Shown here piece by piece: positions 15,185 through 64,000 of a stretch of DNA of 64,000 nt. The stretch's first letter is position 1. Each line of letters opens with the position of its first letter. This DNA comes from Arcuatula senhousia (lineage: Eukaryota > Mollusca > Bivalvia > Mytilida > Mytilidae), in assembly GCA_963971305.1 (NCBI GenBank), contig CAXARO010000881.1, positions 1 through 64,000 on the forward strand, given 5' to 3'. Under the pieces are notes generated by a model, which was not told the origin of the DNA, ran no database searches, and saw only the letters and a list, made by a program, of their open reading frames with translations. A program made the translations under genes and the position numbers.

Positions 15185-15606
15185 GAAATACAAATGACAA
15201 CAAAGTTCCAGACAATAAATTTTGCTACGCCTGACCCGCGTTTCGTCTATTCAAGACTCATCAGAGGCGCTCTACCAAAAATATTGAAAATGTCAAACAC
15301 TATATGAAAAGGAAGAGCATAGAACAATAAAACCAAAAATACCAAACTGGGGAACCAAATTATTACTAAGATAATCAACCTATGTCTGGTGTAGGAAGAA
15401 CCTTAGGGTTTAGACAATTTTGAAATTTAAACAGATAATTTAAAGCTTTGATGTATTCTCCAACTCAAAAGTGTTGGTGCCGGAGCGGGCTAACCTCGGG
15501 GAATTTAAACTCCACCAGCAGTGCTAACCTTCACGTGTGTTCCAGACAATAAATTTTGCTACGCCTGACGCGCGTTTCGTCTATTCAAGACTCATCAGAG
15601 GCGCTC
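15185..15606. repeat. Dispersed repeat with a 65-bp internal direct repeat, inserted in an exon
   Basis: Starts GAAATACAAATGACAACAAA and contains GCGCGTTTCGTCTATTCAAG twice (about 15208-15272 and 15541-15606). A single-copy version is at 37693-37985. GACGCGCGTTTCGTCTA-type repeats are familiar from bivalve genomes. Confidence 0.6.
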
Positions 15607-25065: not shown

Positions 25066-25654
25066 TCAGTACAAAAGACCAGTCAAACACTTATTAAAAA
25101 AATTAACTACCATATCTTTTAACTCAATTTTGAACTTTTCTACTAGTGGCTGATAACGAAGAAAGAATTTTTTTAGTGATCGTATCAGACGTATTTTCTT
25201 ATAGCCCTGCTCCAAAAGTCGGTCACGATGAAATCGGTGTCTGATCAAAAAATCTGTGAAATGTGTGCAAGCTCTGGCATATCGAATAAGTTGTGAAATA
25301 TAAACACACACCGTATGCAGGAGAAGTAGGTATATTGCTCTGTAGATTAGGAAAATTAATAGTTTGAAAATTAAAATCGTCTCGTTTATCGTAATTTTTT
25401 GTACTGAGATGACCACCTGGGTCAAATTCGAGGTGCAAATCCAAGAAAGACGTGAAGCAATTTGATTCGGTGGTCTCTTTAATCTCCAATTCCGGAGGAT
25501 ATATTGAAGGAATCCATCTACCAAATGAAGTGTTATTGACAGAAAGGATATCATCAATATAACTGAATGTAAGATTAAATGACCTTGCCTCTTTCATCTT
25601 CTTGTTCTTTACGAGTCCCTGAAGAAATTCAGTCTCGTAAGAGTCTAAAAACAA
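25066..25654 (-). pseudogene. Penelope-like element, RT catalytic and thumb part (copy 1, complete 3' side)
   Basis: The minus strand begins FLDSYETEFLQGL and has FSYIDDILSVNN, the YxDD catalytic motif of the RT palm, then SFLDLHLEFDPGGHL and YDKRDDFNF. Near 25310 the frame shifts and continues as VYISQLIRYARACTHFTDFL and an RRS-like Leu/Lys helix to about 25066. The upstream half of the same ORF lies at 28358-29576, separated by a 2.7-kb insertion. The order and motifs match Penelope-like retroelement RT. There is no endonuclease domain visible in the window, so whether the parent was endonuclease-plus is open. Confidence 0.7.
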
Positions 25655-26146
25655 GAGGCTCCCAGGAGCCTGAATCGCTCACTTGGTCTTGATGTCAACC
25701 CCATTTGTATAGCTAAATGAGCTGAATGTTTAAACAGGAAAAAGCTTTTCTCTATCTGCAATAGTTTTCATTCTATAGGCCAAAAACACTATTTTTTACC
25801 TTTAAAGGGCAATAACCCCTTAAAGTGGTAATCTGACAACTTCAACCCTATGAAGACTTTTGTAGAACTCAATGAGTTGAACATTTAAGCAATCAACAGC
25901 TTTTCTCTATCTGCAATAGTTTTCATTCTATAGGCCAAAACACCATTTTTTGCCTTTAGGGGACTGTAATCCCTATAAGGGGTCACAACTTCAACCCTAT
26001 GAAGATTTTTGTAGAGCTAAATGAGTTGAACATTTAAGCAATCAACAACTTTTCTCTATCTGCATTAGTTTTCATTCTACAAGCCAAAAACACTATTTTA
26101 CGCCTTTAAGGGGCTGTAACCTCTATAAGGGGTCATCTGACAACTT

Positions 26147-27848
26147 CGACTGTCTTTTTGATGTTTTCTGTTTCTTGTTTAAGAAGGGGGTCTTTCTGTG
26201 ACTATTTCAGGGCTTGATTTGAATTATATGCATCTTATCTAGACCATGGGCCAATTGCAGAACCGCAAGCAGTGCCAATTGTCCTCGTTGAAGGCTGCTG
26301 GCGGTTGTCCATTGTGGTTTCTAGCTCACCTGACCCGAAGGGTCATGTGAGCTATTGTCATCGTTAAGCGTCCGTCGTCCGTCCGTCGTCCGTTAACTTT
26401 TCTTCAAAGATCTTCTTCTCTGAAACCACTGAAGGGATTGCATTGATACTTGGTATACAAGATCTTTAGGATTTACTCTACCAAGTTTGTGAATTATATA
26501 CATGTGGACCAACCAAGATGGCCGCCGTTGCTAAAAATAGAACAGGGGGGTCAGACCATTGTTTTTGGCTTATAACTCAAAAAGTATAAGAGATAGAGAA
26601 AATCCGAAGCAACCTTCCTTGTTCAGCATCAAAAGCTCTACGAATCTCTCCATTGGGTCGAAGTTGTGAAACAACTCCTTATAGGAGTTATTGCCCTTTA
26701 ATCATCAAATTTGACCATTTTTGCAGTTTTTGGACAATATCTTGAAAACTGTTAGAGCTAGAGGAAAAGTTAGCATTGCAGAATTGTTTAGCTCATTGAG
26801 ATCTACAAAAATGATTTCAGGGTCTAAATTGTCAGATCAGCCGTTTAAGAGTTATTCCCCTTTAACTGTTTTTTCCATGAATTTACACTGATTTTCAAAA
26901 ATCTTCTTCTCTAAAACTACTGAAGGGATTGCATTGATACTTGGTATACATGATCTTTAGGATGTCCTCTACCAAGTTTGTGAATTATATACATGTCGAC
27001 CAACCAACATGGCGGCCATTGCTAAAAATAGAATAGGGGGGTCAGACCATTGTTTTTGGCTTATAACTCAAAAAGTATAAAAGATAGAGAAAATCCGAAG
27101 CAACCTTCCTTGTTCAGCATCAAAAGCTCTACGAATCTCTCCATTGAGTCGAAGTTGTGAAACAACTCCTTATAGGAGTTATTGCCCTTTAATCATCAAA
27201 TTTGACCATTTTTGCAGTTTTTGGACAATATCTTGAAAACCGTTAGAGCTAGAGGAAAAGTTAGCATTGCAGAATTGTTTAGCTCATTGAGATCTACAAA
27301 AATGATTTCAGGGTCTAAATTGTCAGATCAGCCGTTTAAGAGTTATTCCCCTTTAACTGTTTTTTCCATGAATTTACACTGTTTTTCAAAAATCTTCTCT
27401 AAAACTACTGAAGGGATTGCATTGATACTTGGTATACATGATCTTTAGGATGTCCTCTACCAAGTTTGTGAATTATATACATGTCAACCAACCAACATGG
27501 CCGCCGTTGCTAAAAATAGAACAGGGGGGTCAAACCATTGTTTTTGGCTTATAACTCAAAAAGTATAAGAGATAAAAAAAATCGGAAGCAAATTTTTTGT
27601 TCAGCATCAAAAGGTCCTTACAGTAGTTATTGCCCTTTAACTGTTTTTTTCTATTAATTTAAACTGATTTCCAAAAATCTTCTCTGATACCACTGAAAGG
27701 ATTGTTTTGCAACTTTGTATACTTGAAAGTTTGTGAAATTTATTCAAACTTTGGCATAAGAGATCAGGTGAGCGATTCAGGCTCCTGGGAGCCTCTAGTT
27801 CTAAATTACCGTTTAATTGTGGGCTGTGTCGCGTACACTTATTCCACA
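26147..27848 (-). pseudogene. EMWNKCTRH terminal-exon fragment inside element A, split by element B
   Basis: At 27848-27798 the minus strand reads ENEEMWNKCTRH. On the other side of element B (26325-26150) the sequence aligns with the part downstream of the same exon at 11.5-11.65 kb (AGCAGCCTTCAACGAGGACA versus AGCAGTCTTCAACATGACC; GGGCCAATTG versus GGGCCAATGC). Element A sequence flanks both sides directly. It is about 230 bp in total without element B. Confidence 0.55.
26326..27797. mobile_element. Hairpin-ended element B (inverted, 1.47 kb)
   Basis: One end is TAGCTCACCTGACCCGAAGG followed by CGTCCGTCGTCCGTCCGTCG. The other is CAGGTGAGCGATTCAGGCTC and the CTGGGAGCCTCTAG hairpin. Inside are three units of about 480-495 bp starting near CACTGAAGGGATTGCATTGA. 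The ends match element A in inverse orientation while the internal units are different, so it is a sister family sharing termini. Non-coding. Confidence 0.7.
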
Positions 27849-28357
27849 TCTCTTCATTTTCTATGGACACTTTTGTAGAGCTAAATGAGCTGAACATTTA
27901 AGCAAGCAACAACTTTTCTCTATCTGTAATAATTTTCATTTTAGAAGCCAAAAACATGAAAAAATGCTATTTTTCACCTTCAAAGGGCAGTAACTCCTAA
28001 AAGGGGTTATCTGACAACTTCGACCAAATGGAGACTTTTGTAGAGCTTTTGATGCTGAATCAGTAGCGTGGCATCAGATTTCATCTATCTCTTATACTTT
28101 ATGATTTACAAGCCAAAAACAGTAGTCTGACCCCCCTGGTCTATTTTTAGTAACAGCAGCCATGATTTTTGACGGGTCAAAAATCCAAACACAAGTTTGG
28201 TGTAGGACACCCTAAGGATCATTCATACCAAGTTTCAGTAAATTCTGTTCAGTAGTTTAAGAGGAGAAGATTTTTGAAAAATTGTTAACGGACGACGACG
28301 ACGACGGACGCCAAGTTATGGCAAAAGCTCACATGGACTTTTGGTTCAGGTGAGCTA

Positions 28358-29576
28358 ACGAATCGGCGAGGAAAGGAGCACAGTTTGTGCCCATTGGAAT
28401 GCCGATTGGTTGTTGAAAATCTCTCCTCCGAAGGTGTCCAATATGTTGTCAATGAGGAAATCAAGCATACTGCAAACTTGTTCAAGTGTGTAACAAATTT
28501 TATCTTTGAAAGATGTTTTTGAAAAGAAGGTAGAATTATTACCCAAAACAACAAAATTCCTAGAGTTTGAAAAGGCTTTTTCGAGAAGTTTTTTCAGGCG
28601 ACATTTTAGTTTTTTGTGTGGCAAGGTAGTGTATAAAGTTGAAAAATCGAACGTTTTCAAAGAGTGAACCTCGGAAAATGATTTAGATTTAAAATGATCT
28701 AACAAATCTTTTGAGTTCTTCAAAATCCACATATGGTTAATTCCACTACGATTATAAATAGTGTCGCAGTATGCTTGTTGACCTTCTTTGACAGCAGACA
28801 AGATTTTAGTAAACTGAACGGACTGTAGTTGAACATGATGAAGATCCAGCTATATACCTTTCTTTGTACGGATTTTTGTGAGGTTTAGGTATCCAGTACA
28901 AATATGGTAACTCTTTATGTTCATTGGAATATTGAAAGAGGACATAAAAGAGCTATGGTTGGCTATGATTTCATCTTTGTTAAATGTAGTCCGTGTGTAT
29001 GTAGCTCTAGCGGAAGTATTACCATCAATGCCTAGTTCTTTTATTAGACAATTATAATAGTGTGCTTTACATACAAAAACTATATTATTGGAAGCCTTGT
29101 CTCCTGGCGTGACAACATACCTGTCATGTAAGGAAGAGAGACAATTGAGAGCTTCACGATCTCTAAATACAGAAGAAGGCCGGGGGTTCACACATTTGCG
29201 AAGTTTGTCTATTCGACTTCGTACAAGAGATCGGATAGTCCTTACCCAGTCGGACAGTGATTCAAGCTCTGGTTCTTGGTCCTTTTCCCTCTTTATCCAG
29301 GCTCTAGCATAGTCCTCCACAGCATCCATGATGATCTTAAAGTTGTGATTCCAATTGATACGTTTTGTCCCTGAATTTAGGTCCATGGGAAACCACATTA
29401 CGTAATAAATCATTTTCAATTATCTTAAGATCAAAGGGAGAAGCATAGCAATCACATGTCAGAAGGGACTTTAGATATTCTTCAATGTTTAGGTCCTGCT
29501 GAGGCTGATCGAATAAACTGTCAAACACATTAATACAAATCTGTATGAACTGGCTATTTTTATCCTTTTCCCTCAT
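28358..29576 (-). pseudogene. Penelope-like element, N-terminal and RT fingers part (copy 1)
   Basis: In minus-strand order: LKIIENDLLRNVVSHGPKF (from about 29430), a frameshift near 29345, NWNHNFKIIMDAVEDYARAW, RYVVTPGDKASNNIVFVC with a KAHYYNCLIKELG block, a second frameshift near 28820, then IYNRSGINHMWILKNS, FDFSTLYTTLPHKKL and FVVLGNNSTFF. It ends NQPIGIPMGTNCAPFLADS at the element A insertion point. These are the motifs of Penelope-like RT. Frameshifts plus the insertion make it inactive. Confidence 0.7.
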
Positions 29577-29707
29577 TAATGATCATTATTTAACATAATT
29601 ATATACATTTTGTTTTGAATTTATTTCATTTTCAATATCAATTTAACATCTGTTTTCTCATGTTTGTATCATTTCAACTGTACTTCTCTTCTTTTCCTCA
29701 AAACAGA

Positions 29708-29752
29708 ACTGGAAATAAGGAGAAAAAGAAAGAGGAGGAGGTGGCGAATAGG
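29708..29752 (+). pseudogene. Copy of the 45-nt TGNKEKKKEEEVAN exon without its terminal exon
   Basis: Identical to the exon at 34318-34362, with the same AAAACAG acceptor and GTAGTA donor. The tandem duplication copied this exon but not the terminal exon at 34681, so a transcript here would need to splice across copy 2. Confidence 0.6.
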
Positions 29753-29931
29753 TAGTATATGAATTCATTTTTTTAAACAAAATCGAGTGAATTATCCTTT
29801 TTAAATAATTAAACCCCCACCGATTACAATTTAAAAAAATATATATACGGAAATCAAATTAAAAAAAATCAACAATGTCAACTATATTATATAAAAATAC
29901 GGAGATTGGAATAGGTGTACGCAAGCATGAC

Positions 29932-30258
29932 AGGTATATTGCTCTGTAGATTAGGAAAATTAATAGTTTGAAAATTAAAATCGTCTCGTTTATCGTAATT
30001 TTTTGTACTGAGATGACCACCTGGGTCAAATTCGAGGTGCAAATCCAAGAAAGACGTGAAGCAATTTGATTCGGTGGTCTCTTTAATCTCCAATTCCGGA
30101 GGATATATTGAAGGAATCCATCTACCAAATGAAGTGTTATTGACAGAAAGGATATCATCAATATAACTGAATGTAAGATTAAATGACCTTGCCTCTTTCA
30201 TCTTCTTGTTCTTTACGAGTCCCTGAAGAAATTCAGTCTCGTAAGAGTCTAAAAACAA
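29932..30258 (-). pseudogene. Penelope RT catalytic fragment, copy 2 (truncated by the junction)
   Basis: Same YIDD-containing segment as 25328-25654, but the thumb part is lost at the duplication junction after FPNLQSNIP. Its frame runs into unrelated sequence. Confidence 0.7.
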
Positions 30259-32968
30259 GAGGCTCCCAGGAGCCTGAATCGCTCACTTGGTCTTGATGTC
30301 AACCCCATTTGTATAGCTAAATGAGCTGAATGTTTAAACAGGAAAAAGCTTTTCTCTATCTGCAATAGTTTTCATTCTATAGGCCAAAAACACTATTTTT
30401 TACCTTTAAAGGGCAATAACCCCTTAAAGTGGTAATCTGACAACTTCAACCCTATGAAGACTTTTGTAGAACTCAATGAGTTGAACATTTAAGCAATCAA
30501 CAGCTTTTCTCTATCTGCAATAGTTTTCATTCTATAGGCCAAAACACCATTTTTTGCCTTTAGGGGACTGTAATCCCTATAAGGGGTCACAACTTCAACC
30601 CTATGAAGATTTTTGTAGAGCTAAATGAGTTGAACATTTAAGCAATCAACAACTTTTCTCTATCTGCATTAGTTTTCATTCTACAAGCCAAAAACACTAT
30701 TTTACGCCTTTAAGGGGCTGTAACCTCTATAAGGGGTCATCTGACAACTTCGACTGTCTTTTTGATGTTTTCTGTTTCTTGTTTAAGAAGGGGGTCTTTC
30801 TGTGACTATTTCAGGGCTTGATTTGAATTATATGCATCTTATCTAGACCATGGGCCAATTGCAGAACCGCAAGCAGTGCCAATTGTCCTCGTTGAAGGCT
30901 GCTGGCGGTTGTCCATTGTGGTTTCTAGCTCACCTGACCCGAAGGGTCATGTGAGCTATTGTCATCGTTAAGCGTCCGTCGTCCGTCCGTCGTCCGTCGT
31001 CCGTTAACTTTTCTTCAAAGTTCTTCTTCTCTGAAACCACTGAAGGGATTGCATTGATACTTGGTATACAAGATCTTTAGGATTTACTCTACCAAGTTTG
31101 TGAATTATATACATGTGGACCAACCAAGATGGCCGCCGTTGCTAAAAATAGAACAGGGGGGTCAGACCATTGTTTTTGGCTTATAACTCAAAAAGTATAA
31201 GAGATAGAGAAAATCCGAAGCAACCTTCCTTGTTCAGCATCAAAAGCTCTACGAATCTCTCCATTGGGTCGAAGTTGTGAAACAACTCCTTATAGGAGTT
31301 ATTGCCCTTTAATCATCAAATTTGACCATTTTTGCAATTTTTGGACAATATCTTGAAAACTGTTAGAGCTAGAGGAAAAGTTAGCATTGCAGAATTGTTT
31401 AGCTCATTGAGATCTACAAAAATGATTTCAGGGTCTAAATTGTCAGATCAGCCGTTTAAGAGTTATTCCCCTTTAACTGTTTTTTCCATGAATTTACACT
31501 GATTTTCAAAAATCTTCTTCTCTAAAACTACTGAAGGGATTGCATTGATACTTGGTATACATGATCTTTAGGATGTCCTCTACCAAGTTTGTGAATTATA
31601 TACATGTCGACCAACCAACATGGCGGCCATTGCTAAAAATAGAATAGGGGGGTCAGACCATTGTTTTTGGCTTATAACTCAAAAAGTATAAAAGATAGAG
31701 AAAATCCGAAGCAACCTTCCTTGTTCAGCATCAAAAGCTCTACGAATCTCTCCATTGAGTCGAAGTTGTGAAACAACTCCTTATAGGAGTTATTGCCCTT
31801 TAATCATCAAATTTGACCATTTTTGCAGTTTTTGGACAATATCTTGAAAACCGTTAGAGCTAGAGGAAAAGTTAGCATTGCAGAATTGTTTAGCTCATTG
31901 AGATCTACAAAAATGATTTCAGGGTCTAAATTGTCAGATCAGCCGTTTAAGAGTTATTCCCCTTTAACTGTTTTTTCCATGAATTTACACTGTTTTTCAA
32001 AAATCTTCTCTAAAACTACTGAAGGGATTGCATTGATACTTGGTATACATGATCTTTAGGATGTCCTCTACCAAGTTTGTGAATTATATACATGTCAACC
32101 AACCAACATGGCCGCCGTTGCTAAAAATAGAACAGGGGGGTCAAACCATTGTTTTTGGCTTATAACTCAAAAAGTATAAGAGATAAAAAAAATCGGAAGC
32201 AAATTTTTTGTTCAGCATCAAAAGGTCCTTACAGTAGTTATTGCCCTTTAACTGTTTTTTTCTATTAATTTAAACTGATTTCCAAAAATCTTCTCTGATA
32301 CCACTGAAAGGATTGTTTTGCAACTTTGTATACTTGAAAGTTTGTGAAATTTATTCAAACTTTGGCATAAGAGATCAGGTGAGCGATTCAGGCTCCTGGG
32401 AGCCTCTAGTTCTAAATTACCGTTTAATTGTGGGCTGTGTCGCGTACACTTATTCCACATCTCTTCATTTTCTATGGACACTTTTGTAGAGCTAAATGAG
32501 CTGAACATTTAAGCAAGCAACAACTTTTCTCTATCTGTAATAATTTTCATTTTAGAAGCCAAAAACATGAAAAAATGCTATTTTTCACCTTCAAAGGGCA
32601 GTAACTCCTAAAAGGGGTTATCTGACAACTTCGACCAAATGGAGACTTTTGTAGAGCTTTTGATGCTGAATCAGTAGCGTGGCATCAGATTTCATCTATC
32701 TCTTATACTTTATGATTTACAAGCCAAAAACAGTAGTCTGACCCCCCTGGTCTATTTTTAGTAACAGCAGCCATGATTTTTGACGGGTCAAAAATCCAAA
32801 CACAAGTTTGGTGTAGGACACCCTAAGGATCATTCATACCAAGTTTCAGTAAATTCTGTTCAGTAGTTTAAGAGGAGAAGATTTTTGAAAAATTGTTAAC
32901 GGACGACGACGACGACGGACGCCAAGTTATGGCAAAAGCTCACATGGACTTTTGGTTCAGGTGAGCTA
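30259..32968. mobile_element. Copy 2 of nested elements A and B with the exon fragment
   Basis: Same arrangement as 25655-28357. Element B corresponds to about 30930-32408 and the EMWNKCTRH fragment to about 30751-32459. Confidence 0.75.
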
Positions 32969-34187
32969 ACGAATCGGCGAGGAAAGGAGCACAGTTTGTG
33001 CCCATTGGAATGCCGATTGGTTGTTGAAAATCTCTCCTCCGAAGGTGTCCAATATGTTGTCAATGAGGAAATCAAGCATACTGCAAACTTGTTCAAGTGT
33101 GTAACAAATTTTATCTTTGAAAGATGTTTTTGAAAAGAAGGTAGAATTATTACCCAAAACAACAAAATTCCTAGAGTTTGAAAAGGCTTTTTCGAGAAGT
33201 TTTTTCAGGCGACATTTTAGTTTTTTGTGTGGCAAGGTAGTGTATAAAGTTGAAAAATCGAACGTTTTCAAAGAGTGAACCTCGGAAAATGATTTAGATT
33301 TAAAATGATCTAACAAATCTTTTGAGTTCTTCAAAATCCACATATGGTTAATTCCACTACGATTATAAATAGTGTCGCAGTATGCTTGTTGACCTTCTTT
33401 GACAGCAGACAAGATTTTAGTAAACTGAACGGACTGTAGTTGAACATGATGAAGATCCAGCTATATACCTTTCTTTGTACGGATTTTTGTGAGGTTTAGG
33501 TATCCAGTACAAATATGGTAACTCTTTATGTTCATTGGAATATTGAAAGAGGACATAAAAGAGCTATGGTTGGCTATGATTTCATCTTTGTTAAATGTAG
33601 TCCGTGTGTATGTAGCTCTAGCGGAAGTATTACCATCAATGCCTAGTTCTTTTATTAGACAATTATAATAGTGTGCTTTACATACAAAAACTATATTATT
33701 GGAAGCCTTGTCTCCTGGCGTGACAACATACCTGTCATGTAAGGAAGAGAGACAATTGAGAGCTTCACGATCTCTAAATACAGAAGAAGGCCGGGGGTTC
33801 ACACATTTGCGAAGTTTGTCTATTCGACTTCGTACAAGAGATCGGATAGTCCTTACCCAGTCGGACAGTGATTCAAGCTCTGGTTCTTGGTCCTTTTCCC
33901 TCTTTATCCAGGCTCTAGCATAGTCCTCCACAGCATCCATGATGATCTTAAAGTTGTGATTCCAATTGATACGTTTTGTCCCTGAATTTAGGTCCATGGG
34001 AAACCACATTACGTAATAAATCATTTTCAATTATCTTAAGATCAAAGGGAGAAGCATAGCAATCACATGTCAGAAGGGACTTTAGATATTCTTCAATGTT
34101 TAGGTCCTGCTGAGGCTGATCGAATAAACTGTCAAACACATTAATACAAATCTGTATGAACTGGCTATTTTTATCCTTTTCCCTCAT
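32969..34187 (-). pseudogene. Penelope-like element N-terminal part, copy 2
   Basis: Matches 28358-29576 with the same frameshifts, so the damage predates the duplication. Confidence 0.7.
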
Positions 34188-37692: not shown

Positions 37693-37985
37693 GAAATACA
37701 AATGACAACAAAGTTCCAGACAATAAATTTTGCTACGCCTGACGCGCGTTTCGTCTATTCAAGACTCATCAGAGGCGCTCTACCAAAAATATTGAAAATG
37801 CCAAACACTCTATGAATATGAAGAGCATAATACAGTATAACCAAAAATACCAAACTGGGGAATCAAATTATTACTAAGATATTCAACTTATGTCTGGGGT
37901 AGGAAAAACCTTAGGGTTTAGACAATTTTGAAATTTAGAAAGATAATTTAAAGCTTTGATGTATTCTCCAACTCAAAATGAAGCT
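37693..37985. repeat. Dispersed repeat, single-copy version of 15185-15606
   Basis: GGAAATACAAATGACAACAA, GCGCGTTTCGTCTATTCAAG and TATTCTCCAACTCAAAA occur in the same order, but without the second internal direct repeat. Confidence 0.65.
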
Positions 37986-50976: not shown

Positions 50977-52215
50977 ATGAATTTCTGCAATTTTGGGAAA
51001 GTTTTAATTGCACGAGCAACCAAAAATTTGGAAGCCATTAAGTGGTGGAATAATGGTAAAGAAAAGAGTGACGAAAAGAGTGACCAATCCGGCTCAGACT
51101 CAGAAAATGAGGTGAATGCAAGACCAAAGCAGCTTTTAACTGAGAATCTTACATTAAAAGATCGGCATCAAAATTACGAGATTTATGTCGAAGGTTAACC
51201 TAAAATGGCATTGGATTTCAAAACGTTTCAAAAGAAATGTCCTCAAATCCAGACATACCTGACTGAAAAGAAATATTGGAAAAACAACAACAAAACCCAA
51301 GAGCAACACATATTTCTTGACCATTTTTCATTACAAAACTGGATACTAACCATTCCAGAGAGAGAGAGAAAATTACATTCTATTCAGAACTGTATACCAT
51401 GCAATACCACTCACTTGAATACTTCATTATTACACAGCTCTGTCTCCACAACATCAAAAGAGGACTTTGATAACTGCAAACAGCTAGTTGAATCAATGGT
51501 AGGGTTAGTATCTCCTACAAGTATTGGAACAAAGCAGAAGGGAATGAAAGTAATAAAATCTGTGGTGGAAGTCCTACAACCAATTGTTGAGAATCAGCTG
51601 AACATTAAATTTGAAGCCCCATTATCTTCAAGCATATCAACAACAAACATTACTCCAAAAGACCACAAGAAAATAGTCCACCAATCTGTTGTATCAAGTA
51701 AAGAGGAATTCCAGTCTTCACTTCAAAACAACGGGAAAGACATCAACAACTTCTTGAAATCTGGAAAATCCTACAACCAATACAATAGGGATCGTTTTGA
51801 CAGTGCCTTTGAAAGCATCGAAGATGCTAGTCAGAGACAGGAAAAGGAAAATGCGAAAGGGAAACACCATGCAAATTTCTCTAAATACCAGTTTGATAGA
51901 GAACCCTTTATAGAAGAGATTAAGACTAAATCACCTGGAACCACAGTCAACTGGACAGGCATGGCAAGGCAGTTTAACCTTACTTGCAATGGAAAGTTTC
52001 CTCTCAACGGAGGGCAGGTCTTGTATGAATATGCCAAATCTAAAGGCGTGGATGTGCACCAATTCAAAACAACAAAAAGGATTGCTGGGAGAGATTTTAA
52101 ATTAAGAGTTCGACGTGGAAAGAAGCAAGTGACTGTTAATAATAAAAGGATAAGTATGCCTACAGCTAGACCTGTGAAGGAGTTAAAATCTGAAATAAAG
52201 AAACAGTTGAAATGA
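50977..52215 (+). pseudogene. Multi-copy-type protein with NWT-MARxF motif, one in-frame stop
   Basis: One reading frame runs from 50977 to 52215, broken only by TAA at 51196-51198 (IYVEG, stop, PKMALDFK). The N-terminal part is charged (KEKSDEKSDQSGSDSENE). The body has a Ser-rich linker. The C-terminal 110 residues contain FIEEIKTKSPGTTVNWTGMA, RQFNLTCNGKFPLNGGQVLY and ISMPTARPVKELKSEIKKQL. I recall this VNWTxxAR...NGGQ...RISIPTPR pattern from abundant uncharacterised proteins of cnidarians, fish and molluscs that are probably transposon-borne. NWTGMARQFNL could be a helix-turn-helix. A 336-codon ORF starting at 51205 could still be translated alone. Composition is richer in GC than its flanks. 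Confidence 0.55.
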
Positions 52216-56552: not shown

Positions 56553-57684
56553 ATATTTTCTTTAAATCTTGCAGACATAAGTGCACTTGATGATGTCATT
56601 TCTGACATCATCAGTTTTTGAGTCCATTGAATTGCAAACAGGAACACTGATAACTGTGTGATTATTGCTAGAGTTAAAGATGATCATATTGAAATGTGTT
56701 TGTTTTTTATGTATGTATATATGTAAGTACATTAATTAATGATTTTTTTTAGTTTTTCAATTGATTTCAATACCTTTTTATTGACTCAAAAGTTTAAAAG
56801 TTGACAAAACTGTAGACCCTACAGCCGAACAGCATACTGGCAATTTAATTACTTTTTAGGCCCGCTGAATATTTAAAAATTCAAGGGAGATAATTGAAAT
56901 ATTTTCCACGAGGTGGCGCTGCTCAATCCCAAACTAATTTGTTTGGGTTGAAAAACAACGTGTTTTTGGCTTTTAAATAAAAGAAAACATGTAAATGAAA
57001 TTAAAAATTGATTCAAAATATATTTTTTGCCATGACTGTCGATTATGAACAGAATTTGGTTCCTCAAAAATTAAGAAAAGCGAACTTTAACATCGGTAAC
57101 GAAACTTTGCGTTTCTTTTTCGTCGCGTATGTTTACACTTTTCTCAATTGACAGAATCGAGTTCTAGCGGATGAATATACATAGAAACTGGTTTTCTATG
57201 TTAAATTATATGTTATCCGTTAGTGGTTAACTGGAATTCACGTCACTCTTAACAGTTTAAGAAAATAGTCCTTTTTTCCGACACCACCAAAACAAAGAAA
57301 GGTGCCGATCAATCCCCCCCATTCTTTGACATGTTTCGTCAATATTTAACTCTGTAAACGATGAAACGAATTGTCAGAAGGCTCCTATATGATGTTACTC
57401 TCATTTAGAGTAAAATACAGACATTTGAAAAGTATTTCGCGATGTAGTTTGACTTTTTTCTGTGAAAATTTCTGATGGACGAGATGGCGTCATCAATGGG
57501 TCAATCCATCTTTCCCTAAATTTTACTAATGTTTTAAAATCTTTAGCAGTCGATCCTTTCTAAAATTTGAGCTCAAGATTTGGTGTAAAGATGTGAACTT
57601 TTACAAAATGGTTTGTCATTGTTTACAAGTTAAATATTGACCCATTCTCCATGTACTTTACATGCTGTCTTTGATTTTTTTACA
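56553..57684. other. Upstream region of the CXC/nuclease gene
   Basis: No ORF. CpG-containing words such as CGTCGCGTATG (about 57121-57131) stand out from AT-rich flanks and may mark a promoter. No terminal inverted repeat matching the window's right edge was found. Confidence 0.3.
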
Positions 57685-58125
57685 ATGCCTCGATTAAAAA
57701 ATTGTGAAAAGGTTCACCCTGGAAGCACTGCCACTGGCTCTTGTATAAGTTGTAAACAGGTTGATGTGTCTGGACGCTACACCCACCTTGCACAGAAATT
57801 AGATGACCCATTGTTCTATACCTTTGTTAAAAGCAAATATTTGTACAGAGATGAAGATTGTATTTGTCGTAAATGTGAGCAGCGTTTTTTAAAATTGTCA
57901 CATGAAACACCGTCTAATACAGAAGCATCGAGTAGCAAAAGGAAGTCTTTTGATCCTCAATCATCACAAGATGATAGCCATTTAACTGCAAATTTTGATA
58001 GTTATGGAAATTTATCTTTTGACACACATGATGCTGACTCGACCATTGACATCAGTACTATTGAAGTAGCTGACTCCTCGGAAACTTCTGAAAAAAAATG
58101 TTTTCTGAAACAGATAAATCTGTGA
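57685..58125 (+). CDS. N-terminal block of the CXC/nuclease gene: zinc-binding motif
   Basis: ATG at 57685 opens MPRLKNCEKVHPGSTATGSC and ISCKQVDVSGRYTHLAQKL, with CISC and, about 50 residues later, CICRKC, a likely four-Cys zinc site. A Ser/Thr/Asp-rich linker follows. The frame shifts at an A8 run (58091-58098). In the shifted frame it continues about 10 codons (MFSETDKS), then a GTGAAA...TTTCAG segment of about 52 bp could be a tiny intron before SCFEIEID. A second possible ATG lies at 57637. It is the start of a gene continued at 58174 and 60515. Confidence 0.6.
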   Translation: MPRLKNCEKVHPGSTATGSCISCKQVDVSGRYTHLAQKLDDPLFYTFVKSKYLYRDEDCICRKCEQRFLKLSHETPSNTEASSSKRKSFDPQSSQDDSHLTANFDSYGNLSFDTHDADSTIDISTIEVADSSETSEKKCFLKQINL

Positions 58126-58173
58126 AATAGCCCAGGCGAACATTCAACCGAAGTAAACTTTGCTTCATTTCAG

Positions 58174-60531
58174 TCGTGCTTTGAAATTGAGATAGATGAA
58201 GGTATAGAACAAGTCAGTGGTAACATCTTTCTCTGTGCTTCTCATTACAAAAAATACAAAAACTTCAAGCCACAGTCCAAGTGTTGTATTTGTGACAAAA
58301 GTGTTTACTCTCAAAAGTTCATTGGTGTTTCTGAAGACAAGATTGATATGCTTAATTTGTACATGAAACATATTTTGAAATTAGACAAACAAGTCAAGCC
58401 AATTGCATCATTTAAAACATCTGTATGTCATTCCTGTTACAAGAAATTTAACAATTTTTTGAGATCAGAGGATGCTCAAAATGCATATGCTAGAACAGAT
58501 GAATTTTTGGAAGAATGTCTAGCAAAACATGAACTGATTGATGTAAAAGATTTAGATCTGTCAAACCTGGAGAAATTCTGTTTTCAAGAGTTTTTAGAAT
58601 ATGTAGTTGAGAATTTCAAAGCTTACAATACCCTGCTTGTGTCAAGACTACACTTTAAATACAAAAACTTCATTGATTGTGCAATTCAAAAATTTAACTT
58701 AAATATTGATGATGAGAGTAAATGCCGGTTACAAAAAACAACAAACTGGATTGTTGAAATGTTAAGAACATCCTTAGGTCCAGCTCTTCTTGTTTACAGT
58801 CCTTCCAAAAAAAGTACAAGTAGAATGATTTATCGTATTGGCACAGACTTGACTAAAGCCTTGCACTCTTCCATGATGCATAACAAATCAAAAATTGAAA
58901 AGCTTGAAGAGACAAACAAGGTGCTAAAGGAAAAGATTGAAGGTTTACAATCAATTCAAGAGTCTTCAATTCAAAAGTATATCAACCTAGAAGCCTGCTT
59001 GAAAATTTTAAAAGGGCATGTAAAATCATATGTAATTCAGAGTATCAAATCCACAAATACTCAGCCCCCTGATATTCATGACATAAATTTAGAAAGAGAA
59101 ATTAACAAAATTCATCCTGAATTATGGAACTTTCTATACAGGTTAACATCTAGTGATGATGAGGAAAAATTGATTCGAAAAAATGATTTTGATTGGGAAA
59201 GCCATTATATAAAATCTTCGCCCTCCCCAAAAAACATGCAAAATATCAGGTTTTTTCCAAGACTTTATATTGCTAGTTGCATTTTCCATACATTTCATTC
59301 GCATTGTACTCAGCCTTTGCATTTAGTAATGACTGACATTGTAGATAAGTACAGTGGATCCTCTTCAGATCTGATGCTTATTAACTCAAGAATAGGGGCT
59401 GGTGTTTCAAAGGATACACTGAAAAGATACATCAACAACAAATGTATTTATTTAAATGAAACTGAAAGCATTAGCACAGAGACTTTTGGTATTGCATCAT
59501 TTGACAACTTAGACAAAAATCAAAGTTATGCAATGGTAGGTGCAGGAAAAGACAAGTCTGGCTTTCACGGTACAACCATTCAGGCCGTGTACCCTAAAAA
59601 CTCTGAAAAAAATTTACAAAATGAATTACTTTCAGACCCTCAAGACGAACAGTCACAGTTTTTACCTGCTTCAGTTTCAAAATTTGTAAAATCCTCTGAT
59701 AGATCAGTGTCATTAAAACTTGTCAGCAAACTTGTAGAGCCAGAAGATATGATAGGTGATCCATCACAATTTAAAGTCAATAAGTTTCAAAACTTAGAAT
59801 TAGAGGATTTTAATGAAACAACAGATGAAATTGTAGAATGGGAAAGCTTTTCAAATGTATTGACTGCCTATGGCTTTGTAAAATTTTTTTCCAAAGAAAA
59901 AAAGTTAGTCTTGCCAAATCTAAAAATGTATCTCTCTTCTTCAGACAAAGAAACAGAAAGTTCAAACTTTGTTTCCATTGCTGTTTTGGATGACCCTGCT
60001 GACAGTAAAGAAACTGTTCTCAAGACTTTAAATATCCTTGGGGATAAATTCAAAATTGGGAAAAATTTGCAATACTTGGTAGTAGTTGGTGATGGCAAAT
60101 CATATGATCACCTGATCAAGTTAAAAACTGAATATGGAGAAAGTTTAAATTGGGTTTTGCCTTACCCAGGCGATTGGCATATTTTGAAAAATGTTATTCC
60201 CATTTTTATTAAAATCTACTTTGATGCTGGCTTAAAAGAACTAGCACACAAGTTTCACCGTGGAGCTACTCTTAAAGTTTTAACTGAATGTACAAAGTTT
60301 CAGATAACTAACAGATTTTTCATTCATGTTTGGGAGGCTTTGTTCAGATATCAAATCCAAACATTTATTAAAACTGACAAGTCACAAAATGTACCTGATT
60401 TTCAGAGAGATTTTACAGAAATCCTTGAAACTGTTATTTGCACTGAGAATTTTGAATGTGATGAAAACAATGAAGACATTCTTGACCCAAAGATATGGGA
60501 AAACATTTTAAGCAAAAAAAAACTCGTTTGA
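58174..60531 (+). CDS. Middle block of the CXC/nuclease gene
   Basis: Open from SCFEIEIDEGIEQVSGN to a TGA at 60529-60531. Near the start, CCICDKSVY and SVCHSCYKKFN, about 50 residues apart, are a second zinc site. A helical segment (KIEKLEETNKVLKEKIEGL) follows. Then come FFPRLYIASCIFHTFHS, a VDKYSGSSSDLMLIN segment, MVGAGKDKSGFHGTTIQAVY, and near the end VVVGDGKSYDHLI and WVLPYPGDWHILKNVIPIF. I recall GDWHxLKN and the AVGxDKxGFHGT-like blocks from a large family of uncharacterised, multi-copy proteins in cnidarians and molluscs that end in a CXC domain. An A9 run at 60514-60522 is where the frame changes; the downstream block opens there. Confidence 0.6.
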   Translation, partial: SCFEIEIDEGIEQVSGNIFLCASHYKKYKNFKPQSKCCICDKSVYSQKFIGVSEDKIDMLNLYMKHILKLDKQVKPIASFKTSVCHSCYKKFNNFLRSEDAQNAYARTDEFLEECLAKHELIDVKDLDLSNLEKFCFQEFLEYVVENFKAYNTLLVSRLHFKYKNFIDCAIQKFNLNIDDESKCRLQKTTNWIVEMLRTSLGPALLVYSPSKKSTSRMIYRIGTDLTKALHSSMMHNKSKIEKLEETNKVLKEKIEGLQSIQESSIQKYINLEACLKILKGHVKSYVIQSIKSTNTQPPDIHDINLEREINKIHPELWNFLYRLTSSDDEEKLIRKNDFDWESHYIKSSPSPKNMQNIRFFPRLYIASCIFHTFHSHCTQPLHLVMTDIVDKYSGSSSDLMLINSRIGAGVSKDTLKRYINNKCIYLNETESISTETFGIASFDNLDKNQSYAMVGAGKDKSGFHGTTIQAVYPKNSEKNLQNELLSDPQDEQSQFLPASVSKFVKSSDRSVSLKLVSKLVEPEDMIGDPSQFKVNKFQNLELEDFNETTDEIVEWESFSNVLTAYGFVKFFSKEKKLVLPNLKMYLSSSDKETESSNFVSIAVLDDPADSKETVLKTLNILGDKFKIGKNLQYLVVVGDGKSYDHLIKLKTEYGESLNWVLPYPGDWHILKNVIPIFIKIYFDAGLKELAHKFHRGATLKVLTECTKFQITNRFFIHVWEALFRYQIQTFIKTDKSQNVPDFQRDFTEILETVICTENFECDENNEDILDPKIWENILSKKKLV

Positions 60532-63205
60532 AAATCTCTTACGAGACATTCATGATGATTTCTTGAAATGGCGCCAAGAAAATTGTGAGAATAGTGAGAC
60601 ATTCAAATTTTGGGATACTTTTATTCATATAGATTTCATGTCATATTTAGGCCTTTATCTTGGTATACGCAGTCGAAATTGGCATTTGAGAAATGTGTCT
60701 CTGAAAAAATTAAGCTGTCTCTTTTATGCTTTTGACAGACACAATTATCTGCGCATGATTCCGTATCACATTGCAGATTTGAAAACTTTTCCAAAGCCTG
60801 TTTTAGATCATTTGAAAGCAGGTTGCTTTGCTGTGTCCATATCTGGTCAAAATTACTATTCAGTGGCAATTGATGAATCTCATGAAATGGTTATCAATGC
60901 AAGAACTAAACAGGCACTTAACTCCATTGCACCAACTGCTTTGACAACCTTAGCTCTATATTTGCCATACAGAGCTGAAGTCATTCACAACCTTAAAAAA
61001 CTTCTTCATTTAGAAAAGGATCCATATCATAGAGAAAGCTCTGCAAATCACATGACTATAGAAGAAAATACAATTTGCCTGTACATGAATGAATTAGTCA
61101 ATTCAACCATATTCAATGCAGAAGCTAATACATGTTTACATCATATTTTCACTCAAGTTCTGACATCAAATGAACAAACTGACAGCCTGTTAAATTATCG
61201 CCAATATGGGAATGAGGACATGAGAAATTATTTAGAGTGTTACTTAATTAGGGCTAAAGATATGACAGCAAAGCAACCTGCTAGAAAGAGACGCAATTTG
61301 AAAACTTTCGCTACACCTAAAGTGACTGTATTTAAACAGAAGAAAGAAATAAAAGATAACCAAACTGTCATTTCATGTCTTCGAAAACAAATTGCCTTCT
61401 CAAAGATCACTCAAAAACCAGTAACTGATTTAGATCAGTTTAACTCTCTTCCTAGGGCAATCTCTGATGCAAATGGCATTCCTGAAAAGGGACAAAAATC
61501 TGCTGCTACACAGGTTTTCAAGTCCATGTACAAAGATGCCTTTATATCAATGTTACCTGAACTGGAAGTTGGGCATGCATGTACAGTTATAATTGAGGGA
61601 ATGTTCATAATAAATTCTAGCCCTATTAACACCCATAAAACATTTAGGGATTATGCAGAATTTTTATTTCAAAGATGGGTGTCAAAATCTCAGGTTCAAT
61701 TCAAAGCTTCAGAGATCCATGTTGTCTTTGATGATCCTAACAGACATGGAATTAGTCCAAAAGATATTGAAAGAGCAAGGCGAGACAAAAATGTCAACAA
61801 AATATCTATATATAAATGCATTTCTGGTGAAACTGATCTACCTAAGTCAAACTGGAGAAATTTTTTGGTTGATAGAGAACAGAAAAGAAAATTAGTAAAT
61901 TTTCTATCAGAAGAATTTCTGGATTTGGCTTTGAGAAAACTACCTCCAAAGACTTGTACTGTTGTTGTATCAGGGGGGTTTGATGGCATGAAAAAAGACA
62001 AAGCATTTGAAAGTTTCTCAGAAAAGGGAATAAATGAAATTCCAAATCTGTCCGCCAATCATGAAAAAGGTGACACAAGAATTTGGTTTCATGCTTCAAA
62101 AACTGATTCTGTTAGAATAGTTATTTACAGTCCTGACACAGATTCTGTTTTCATAGGTTTACCTTTGGTTAAAAAACTAGTTGGAAAGTCAGTATTTGTT
62201 CAAATGAAAATTTTTTCTTTCGACAACCAGTTCATTGACATGAATGCCTTAACAGACTCAATTGCTCATGATCTTCTCATGCAAGGTGTTTCAAATGTTG
62301 AGACATGTTTACAAAGAATATTTATAATAAGTGGCTGTGACTTTGTTTCCTTCTTTAGAGGTTATGGGAAGAAAAGCTTTTTTGATGCTTTCAGGAAGAA
62401 TTCAAACTTTATTTCTGGTAAACTAGCTTGTGATGATGACAATGGTTTGTGTTCATTTTACAAACTAGTCCTATGTACTTATTTTTTGAAGCATAGGACA
62501 GCCTTTCAACCTGCTGTTTGTGTAAATGACATACTTGCACAATTTTTAGAAATAGAAAACTCTGAACTTACAGCTGTTGTTGCTTTAATTAAACACTTTC
62601 GCGAGAAGATGTGGGAACGTGTTTCATCTGAAACTGAGATGCTTCCAAATGCTGATGCTTTAAGATTGCATTGGAAAAGATGTTGCTGGGTGTTTAGTTA
62701 TTGGCAACAGTCCCTGAATAGTGTCATGTCTCTTCTACCATTAACAGACCATGGGTGGGTCATAGACAACAACAACTTGTCAGTCATTTGGGATATACAT
62801 GAAAATGTAAAGAAGGTGCACGATGCCATACAGTGGTATACAAAAGGCTGTTCATGTAAAAAGGGGTGTTTGACGAACAAATGCAGTTGCCGAAAAAATA
62901 AAGGGGAGGGTCAATCTGGTTTCTGTGGGCCAGGATGCAAATGTTTAGATTGTAAAAATGTTGAAAATACTACATGTAATGTTGCACCAGAAGAAAACAG
63001 TGAACTTGAAGATGATGGTATTGATGATGATGATGATGATGATAAAGGGGTTGACAGTGATTATCAGGGTTCTGATATAGATGAACATGAAGGGGGAGTT
63101 TTAGAATCTGACATTCTTACTTCTAGGGACAATATACTTGTAGAATACTGGGATGTTTTTGAGGAGAGACATGAAACTGATATGTTAGATGAAGTACAGT
63201 TTTAA
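60515..63205 (+). CDS. C-terminal block: XPG/FEN1-like PIN nuclease motifs and CXC (tesmin/TSO1) domain
   Basis: The frame is open from the A9 run (NSFENLLRDIHDDFLKWRQE) to TAA at 63203-63205. YYSVAIDESHEMVIN lies in the first third. Then IHVVFDDPNRHGISPKDIER with RARRDK, NHEKGDTRIWFHA, IYSPDTDSVFIGLPL and IISGCDFVSFFRGYGKKSFF resemble, in order, the acidic and helix-two-turn-helix motifs of FEN1/XPG-type PIN nucleases (FDG..K..RR, E-A-D, DxD, GCDY..GxGxK). At 62846-62965, CSCKKGCLTNKCSCRKN plus CGPGCKCLDC is a CXC motif as in tesmin/LIN54/MSL2, which binds DNA. The tail is acidic with seven consecutive Asp. Intronless over 2.7 kb and compositionally uniform. A mobile-element origin or recent domestication is inferred. 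Confidence 0.65.
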   Translation, partial: KKNSFENLLRDIHDDFLKWRQENCENSETFKFWDTFIHIDFMSYLGLYLGIRSRNWHLRNVSLKKLSCLFYAFDRHNYLRMIPYHIADLKTFPKPVLDHLKAGCFAVSISGQNYYSVAIDESHEMVINARTKQALNSIAPTALTTLALYLPYRAEVIHNLKKLLHLEKDPYHRESSANHMTIEENTICLYMNELVNSTIFNAEANTCLHHIFTQVLTSNEQTDSLLNYRQYGNEDMRNYLECYLIRAKDMTAKQPARKRRNLKTFATPKVTVFKQKKEIKDNQTVISCLRKQIAFSKITQKPVTDLDQFNSLPRAISDANGIPEKGQKSAATQVFKSMYKDAFISMLPELEVGHACTVIIEGMFIINSSPINTHKTFRDYAEFLFQRWVSKSQVQFKASEIHVVFDDPNRHGISPKDIERARRDKNVNKISIYKCISGETDLPKSNWRNFLVDREQKRKLVNFLSEEFLDLALRKLPPKTCTVVVSGGFDGMKKDKAFESFSEKGINEIPNLSANHEKGDTRIWFHASKTDSVRIVIYSPDTDSVFIGLPLVKKLVGKSVFVQMKIFSFDNQFIDMNALTDSIAHDLLMQGVSNVETCLQRIFIISGCDFVSFFRGYGKKSFFDAFRKNSNFISGKLACDDDNGLCSFYKLVLCTYFLKHRTAFQPAVCVNDILAQFLEIENSELTAVVALIKHFREKMWERVSSETEMLPNADALRLHWKRCCWVFSYWQQSLNSVMSLLPLTDHGWVIDNNNLSVIWDIHENVKKVHDAIQWYTKGCSCKKGCLTNKCSCRKNKGEGQSGFCGPGCKCLDCKNVENTTCNVAPEENSELEDDGIDDDDDDDKGVDSDYQGSDIDEHEGGVLESDILTSRDNILVEYWDVFEERHETDMLDEVQF

Positions 63206-63394
63206 GATCATGTAATGATTAACATACAATCTTTGAGAAGGCAATTAAACATCAAAGTTACTCAGTGCAAAGATTATCTTCATTCATATTTAAAATGTGC
63301 ATGAATACTGTATTTTAGGAATAAAAATGTTCTATTATGTGCCCTTTTTTAATTTTCAGGTCATACAGCATCATTTTACTAAAGGACAAAAATA

Positions 63395-63985
63395 ATGTCA
63401 TCAAATGTACTTGTAATAGGCCACAGCTTTGTAAGAAGACTTGGAAATGATGTCTTAAATCAAGTCCATCGTGATCTTTGTCCTAATTTAGGCTTAAGTG
63501 ATATGGATGTGGCTGTCCGTTATCTTGGAATAAGTGGCGGCAACATATACAGCTTGTTGGATGACACCAATCACATGTTGGCCTCAACATTAGCTTCTTT
63601 TCCAGCAGACATTGTAATGCTTCAAATCGGTGGCAATGATATTGACAAGACAGATTTTAATGAAACTTTATACAAAAACAGTGTTCGCCATCTGATTTTT
63701 TGTTTGCAAGAACTTTACCATGTTAGGAAGGTGGTTATTTGTTCCATATTTCCAAGATTTAAACTCAGAAATATTGATTGTCACAAATACCATGAATTAA
63801 AAGACAAGATTAATATGGACTTTTACTTGGAATTTTATCATTATCCTGATGTTCACTTCTGGCGTCATGATTATGGTTTAATGAGCAACAGGAGTCTCTT
63901 TCGAACAGATGGTGTCCATCTTAACTTGAAAGGAACACGTAAATTTTTTCGCAGTTTAAGAGGAGCTGTTATGTCATTATTATGA
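63395..63985 (+). CDS. SGNH/GDSL-type hydrolase, 196 aa
   Basis: ATG at 63395 gives MSSNVLVIGHSFVRRLGNDV. GHS is the block I nucleophile Ser, DIVMLQIGGNDID holds the block III GxND, and RTDGVHLNLKGTRKFF holds the block V DxxH. Together with ISGGN (block II-like) the catalytic set of an SGNH esterase is complete in 196 residues, close to the family's usual size. A TTTAATTTTCAG acceptor lies at 63348-63359, so a 5' exon may exist, though the ATG is a good start. It lies 190 bp downstream of the CXC/nuclease gene on the same strand. In bivalve and cnidarian genomes such stand-alone SGNH proteins are often transposon-borne. The substrate is unknown. Confidence 0.75.
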   Translation: MSSNVLVIGHSFVRRLGNDVLNQVHRDLCPNLGLSDMDVAVRYLGISGGNIYSLLDDTNHMLASTLASFPADIVMLQIGGNDIDKTDFNETLYKNSVRHLIFCLQELYHVRKVVICSIFPRFKLRNIDCHKYHELKDKINMDFYLEFYHYPDVHFWRHDYGLMSNRSLFRTDGVHLNLKGTRKFFRSLRGAVMSLL

Positions 63986-64000
63986 TTGATTTTCATGAAA

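Follow-up and report, generated by a model that had tools for sequence, protein, structure and literature searches.

DNA transposons of the Academ superfamily have been described in two forms: AcademX, a DDE element with a nuclease and target-site duplications (TSDs) of 3 or 4 bp, and AcademH, which has a helicase in place of the nuclease and TSDs of 9 or 10 bp, the length of the TSD being tied in that description to the encoded nuclease or helicase (PMC10045372). Academ is reported as one of the commonest DDE superfamilies of bivalves, near-confined to them within the molluscs, with a mean curated length of 5565 bp (PMC10294476). Here we describe an element from the bivalve Arcuatula senhousia that joins a transposase of this kind to a second gene, encoding an SGNH hydrolase. 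It lies at the end of a 64,000-nucleotide stretch, hereafter the window (assembly GCA_963971305.1, contig CAXARO010000881.1, positions 1 to 64,000 of the forward strand). We are confident that this is a DDE 'cut-and-paste' transposon of the AcademX kind with two genes, in which the SGNH gene was probably acquired once, appears to have been under selection and likely supplies an accessory esterase. In Academ elements the nuclease is XPG-like, and AcademX typically has a Cys8 module at its N-terminus.

SGNH-type esterases occur in mobile elements of other mechanisms. In ZfL2-1, a CR1/L2-type non-LTR retrotransposon, the esterase of open reading frame (ORF) 1 is active and binds phospholipid, and for retrotransposons a role in the membrane handling of ribonucleoprotein (RNP) particles has been proposed (PMC3905857). 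The present element likewise carries an SGNH-type esterase, but there the enzyme lies within ORF1p of a reverse-transcriptase element, whereas here it is a separate ORF of 196 residues between the terminal inverted repeats (TIRs) of a DDE element. Fish Helitrons, as DNA transposons that mobilise texim SGNH genes (PMC4021074), are similar in that respect, but they are rolling-circle elements and texim has several introns, whereas the coding sequence here is a single ORF between TIRs. Kolobok lineages offer another parallel, being DDE transposons that have gained accessory nucleases or helicases lineage by lineage, but they form a different superfamily and the main text of PMC9587614 mentions no SGNH; fungal DNA transposons carry TET/JBP (PMC12730594). 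Why jumping genes keep such esterases is the question at stake.

The first-pass annotation of the window had held that nuclease, DNA binder and esterase together fit no transposon class that could be named. That view does not survive comparison with the description of AcademX (PMC10045372), with which the unit agrees; where it departs is in its second gene and in the lengths, 9.9 and 13.4 kb, of the two families delimited below. Our literature search, which left Repbase aside, found no report of an SGNH gene in Academ among the top matches listed. The AcademX class is known, and a conserved SGNH hydrolase as its second gene appears to be new. Large Academ elements of the bivalve type can thus be multi-gene units, and annotation of the transposase alone therefore misses part of the element. 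Since a conserved SGNH gene in an AcademX element comes together with young intact copies and with related families that lack the gene, the esterase question becomes directly testable.

Ends, copies and genes of the element

The element begins at 56822 on the forward strand, runs through the end of the window at 64000 and continues to contig position 66728, a total of 9907 bp. Its ends were defined by comparison of copies. A search of the assembly (1.036 Gb, 1803 contigs) with an 880-residue ORF of the transposase gave 55 matches from the 52 of 308 candidates that were scored, and all counts given here are lower bounds. Five of the matches, the window copy included, are full copies at 99-100% identity; aligned to each of the other four, the window copy matches from within 3 bases of 56822 to within 3 bases of 66728. 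The 15-bp TIR at 56822-56836 has a perfect partner at contig positions 66714-66728 (L012 3714-3728) and is perfect in all five copies, each of which is flanked by a TSD of its own (CTA, TAT, TAAA, ATTT and ATA), in keeping with the 3 or 4 bp of AcademX; in the window CTA occupies 56819-56821 and a second CTA directly follows 66728. The alignment of copies that the first-pass annotation had recommended has therefore yielded both boundaries and duplications. Substitution identity lies between 99.55 and 99.60% for all ten pairs of copies, and this near-equal, star-like pattern points to a recent spread of the family. By its ends, duplications and copies the element is a real, recently mobile transposon; the copy in the window was inserted recently, and its own transposase is now decayed. 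Within the window, a search with 70 proteins found no further copies outside this locus. In the copy on contig C4 the alignment is interrupted near the 3' end by a 561-bp insertion; this sequence (L014, G000:C4 from about 60199324) resembles a miniature inverted-repeat transposable element of about 552 bp in having long inverted repeats and a duplication of 9 bp, CGTCATGTA.

The transposase gene (57685-63205, forward strand, ATG at 57685) is intronless and encodes 1844 residues in a frame that is intact in three of the five full copies. The single intronless locus of more than 5 kb proposed in the first-pass annotation is thus there as a frame, but in the window the gene is broken by an in-frame stop (58123-58125) and by a shift of reading frame at an A-run (60514-60522). 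Decay shows a third time at residue 502 of the last ORF, within a nuclease motif, which is lysine here but acidic in all 29 relatives with a letter at that position. Zinc motifs, XPG-type nuclease and CXC module do stand in one gene, as had been predicted. Four N-terminal CxxC pairs (57685-58443), which presumably bind zinc and DNA, correspond to the Cys8 module, and a similar pattern recurs in the relatives P0042, P0049 and P0055. The nuclease domain, of the XPG/Exo1/FEN1 type that AcademX would lead one to expect, spans 61496-62743, with acidic residues conserved in relatives, and the structure check proposed earlier returned a modelled fold of the XPG/PIN kind; a cysteine-rich CXC domain (TCR, LIN-54-like) follows at 62849-62953. 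The earlier inventory overlooked the DDE core. This RNase H-like region, again a feature of AcademX, extends over 59503-60877, with candidate acidic residues at 59503-59505 (FDN), 60091-60093 (GDGK) and 60875-60877 (DESHE), and includes Pfam DUF6589 (60013-60432), matched at an E-value of 1.5e-9 with the middle part of the transposase and absent from one scan of the full-length 1844-residue protein.

From the 880-residue ORF, 58 related proteins were retrieved at E<=0.001, many of them under Mytilus names and about 40-70% identical over their parts, others from Owenia, Antedon, Apostichopus and Amphiura and some without a name. None of the 58 is a fusion of transposase and SGNH, and IMG/VR contained no relative, as expected for an animal element. 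An OTU-like protease, a possible accessory domain, was matched in two of seven relatives scanned against Pfam (P0047 and, below Pfam's cut-off, P0027) and is a precomputed domain in P0050; two of these three proteins carry the names of Owenia and Amphiura as their source.

The SGNH gene (63395-63985, forward strand) encodes 196 residues with the catalytic blocks of SGNH/GDSL hydrolases (Ser11, Gly48, Asn81, and Asp172 and His175 in Asp-x-x-His) and matches PF13472 at an E-value of 6.1e-9. The first-pass annotation was right to place a complete esterase gene 190 bp on and on the same strand: the frame is intact in all five full copies and in each begins 189 bp past the transposase stop, within the TIRs. 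Because it keeps the same offset inside shared ends in five of five copies, the SGNH gene is a component of the transposon, and the suspicion that both genes belong to one mobile unit, with the same ends, repeats and duplications, is borne out. No ORF that reaches 80 residues fits entirely within the stretch from 56822 to the transposase ORF, and between the SGNH gene and the 3' end the ORFs listed include no other of more than 81 residues. Relatives of the hydrolase numbered 12 at first and then 121 by profile; among the 120 listed, the catalytic Ser is aligned in 118 and Asn in 117, and Ser, Asn, Asp and His stand together in 75, the Asp or His column being gapped in 24-27 rows. IMG/VR and GTDB genomes gave two weak matches, 28% over 76 residues (L001/L002).

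The gap between the genes may hold expression signals. AATAAA at 63320-63325, which would arise there by chance in about 20-30% of cases, is a possible polyadenylation signal of the transposase mRNA, and a sequence resembling a 3' splice site (63340-63359) ends 35 nt before the SGNH start. Comparable pyrimidine-rich YAG sequences end 40 and 26 nt upstream of the SGNH start in the related elements on C11 and C10 discussed below. Three database SGNH proteins (P0059, P0062 and P0067), which count as one case because they are close to each other, have predicted N-terminal extensions reading SFNFQ that are compatible with an untranslated intron end. The SGNH gene may thus form the final exon of a spliced mRNA.

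Linkage and descent of the SGNH gene

The pairing of transposase and SGNH extends beyond the window family. The 55 transposase matches merge into 48 loci, many partial or decayed, and a search with the SGNH protein gave 150 scored rows from 594 candidates. At 14 of the 48 loci an SGNH match follows on the same strand within 5 kb, against 0.02 expected by chance, and an earlier count with 29 of the 150 rows had given the same result. Fifteen of 19 SGNH rows at 41% identity or more adjoin a transposase, as opposed to one of 131 below that value. The remaining four of the closer rows (two on C6, one on C13 and one on C2) are without a scored transposase and each is partial, the two on C6 jointly spanning the query across a gap.

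A second family, represented on C11 and C530, is about 54% identical to the window family in the 880-residue part. Over 13.4 kb its two copies are 98-99% identical (96% within one tandem stretch); beyond that the similarity is lost, which places the ends at TIRs of their own, TAGT[C/A]GGACGGCAGAT. The apparent TSDs are TTAC and TTA, with TTA at both sites in a comparison of two copies, and the SGNH gene stands 2.3 and 1.8 kb after the transposase, inside the ends. No TIR candidates were found in three other families, where they were sought from single copies; those of C11/C530 came from the two-copy comparison.

How the SGNH gene came to these elements was approached through two trees. The transposase tree combined 14 database proteins with 15 loci, ten drawn from the 14 that have SGNH and five from the other 34. 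Of the ten with SGNH, nine fall on one side of a branch with a Shimodaira-Hasegawa-like approximate likelihood ratio (SH-aLRT) support of 89, with a Mytilus coruscus protein among them; they represent three lineages, namely five window-family copies, three members of the C11 family, and C10. In the SGNH tree (42 rows) a single branch (99) again separates the AcademX-linked hydrolases of these three lineages, together with eight database SGNHs, from the rest, and the branching order agrees between the trees, the window being closer to C11 than to C10. The window and C11 proteins have 104 of 196 residues in common, with nonsynonymous divergence (dN) of 0.49, synonymous divergence (dS) undefined through saturation and no stop; for C10 dN is 0.63, dS is too high to compute and there is again no stop. 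Catalytic residues are kept in all three lineages. A single acquisition with subsequent co-inheritance is the simplest account indicated by these sequences, and probably the ancestor of the clade gained the gene once and transmitted it with the transposase over a long period under purifying selection. The tenth locus, C8, whose SGNH is 35% identical, is a fourth lineage, and chance neighbourhood or nested insertion is the likely explanation there.

The 131 SGNH matches below 41% identity in the genome (G000) are a large family in their own right, in which equal-scoring copies of frames of 202-213 residues occur on many contigs, and this suggests more mobile carriers of SGNH than AcademX. In one case (L032, G000:C1186:18200-24340) a more distant SGNH gene belongs to a unit recurring about every 6 kb, with a gag-like ORF of 371 residues on the same strand that ends in a cysteine/histidine cluster; we presume it is perhaps a DIRS/Ngaro-like element.

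Possible roles of the esterase and competing explanations

In the mechanism that we envisage, recognition of the 15-bp ends probably falls to the cysteine modules together with the CXC domain. The RNase H-like DDE core would carry out cutting and joining, branched or flap intermediates are probably trimmed or cut by the fused XPG/FEN1-type nuclease, and insertion produces the observed duplications of 3-4 bp. The SGNH hydrolase may be translated from a spliced mRNA as its last exon. It most likely removes acyl groups from a lipid or an acylated protein, thereby aiding transmission or expression of the element, by analogy with what has been proposed for CR1-type esterases, and an accessory esterase under selection is its most likely role. 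More tentatively, it could be a selected helper of a cut-and-paste transposon, the third unrelated class of mobile element with SGNH after CR1-type retrotransposons and fish Helitrons. If true, this would point to a shared lipid- or acyl-dependent step, be it nuclear entry, germ-line transmission or horizontal transfer. DDE DNA transposons are not known to assemble RNP particles of the retrotransposon kind.

Several observations weigh against the interpretation of the locus as an AcademX transposon with a singly acquired, selected SGNH gene. Although the element agrees with AcademX in each feature tested, its class is set by architecture and TSD length, that is, by the published description and not by direct comparison with Academ reference transposases. 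Foldseek returned nothing significant for the DDE model (best E-value 0.59), the match there coming from a second-look aligner only. At 34 of the 48 transposase loci no scored SGNH lies within 5 kb downstream, so the gene is not required for transposition of all relatives; the neighbour that the first-pass annotation expected elsewhere is present in all five full copies but not at these looser loci. A single clade of all ten sampled SGNH-bearing loci is rejected (p 1.3e-5), since C8 groups with loci that lack SGNH in the transposase tree and falls outside in the SGNH tree. Selection on SGNH is indicated and not measured because dS is saturated, the Nei-Gojobori (NG86) value being undefined for all SGNH pairs but one. 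Finally, of the 10824 ATGs in the window and fetched loci, 1122 (10%) have a comparable YAG in the 45 nt before them, and at C8 the pyrimidine-rich YAG before the SGNH start is absent.

The loci without SGNH would also suit an unlikely alternative, in which one AcademX ancestor captured the gene and its descendants carry it as a passenger of no use to the transposon; fish Helitrons offer a precedent, as they mobilise SGNH genes although most Helitrons live without one (PMC4021074). Intact SGNH frames in five copies against intact transposases in three say little here, because the copies are young and the SGNH gene is about nine times shorter. What speaks against an idle passenger is the preservation of catalytic residues in three lineages and, between two families with saturated synonymous sites, of 104 of 196 residues. 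It is rather improbable that the gene serves the host, as a gene of the host, or formerly of a transposon, whose spread along with the element was due to a function in, for example, the germ line, an alternative likewise proposed for the testis-expressed texim genes of fish (PMC4021074): the SGNH gene lies within the TIRs of five near-identical, recent full copies, and none of the close SGNH matches looks like a separate host locus, the four rows that have no scored transposase beside them being partial.

That the element belongs to an undescribed DDE superfamily, sharing an XPG nuclease with Academ but distinct from it, is very unlikely. Assignment by architecture and TSD length leaves room for it, as do lengths of 9.9 and 13.4 kb against a curated bivalve mean of 5565 bp (PMC10294476), but the combination of DDE core, nuclease and 3-4 bp TSDs is that described for AcademX (PMC10045372), and Academ elements are numerous in bivalves and, among molluscs, near-confined to them (PMC10294476). 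One could imagine that two unrelated mobile genes came together by chance or by nested insertion, in a genome whose more distant SGNH matches number at least 131, some of them in other repeated units. This is scarcely credible given the same offset in five of five full copies, an SGNH gene inside the ends of two families and 14 loci where 0.02 were expected, and for the window family the shared ends, offset and locus counts refute it.

Other features of the window

Outside the transposon, the window contains two type I hammerhead ribozymes on the reverse strand (15561-15604 and 37735-37778), 22 kb apart and of equal score above Rfam's gathering threshold. A direct duplication with an offset of 4611 bp occupies 25223-34030: the ORFs at 28355-28801 and 28850-29419 are repeated with identical translations at 32966-33412 and 33461-34030, and those at 25223-25654 and 29887-30258 have most of their translation in common. 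Neither three ORFs of this duplication nor an ORF of 336 residues at 51205-52215 (forward strand) gave a significant Pfam match. Between 43074 and 46165 a 174-bp unit is repeated about 17.8 times, with 95% matches, in a satellite-like array.

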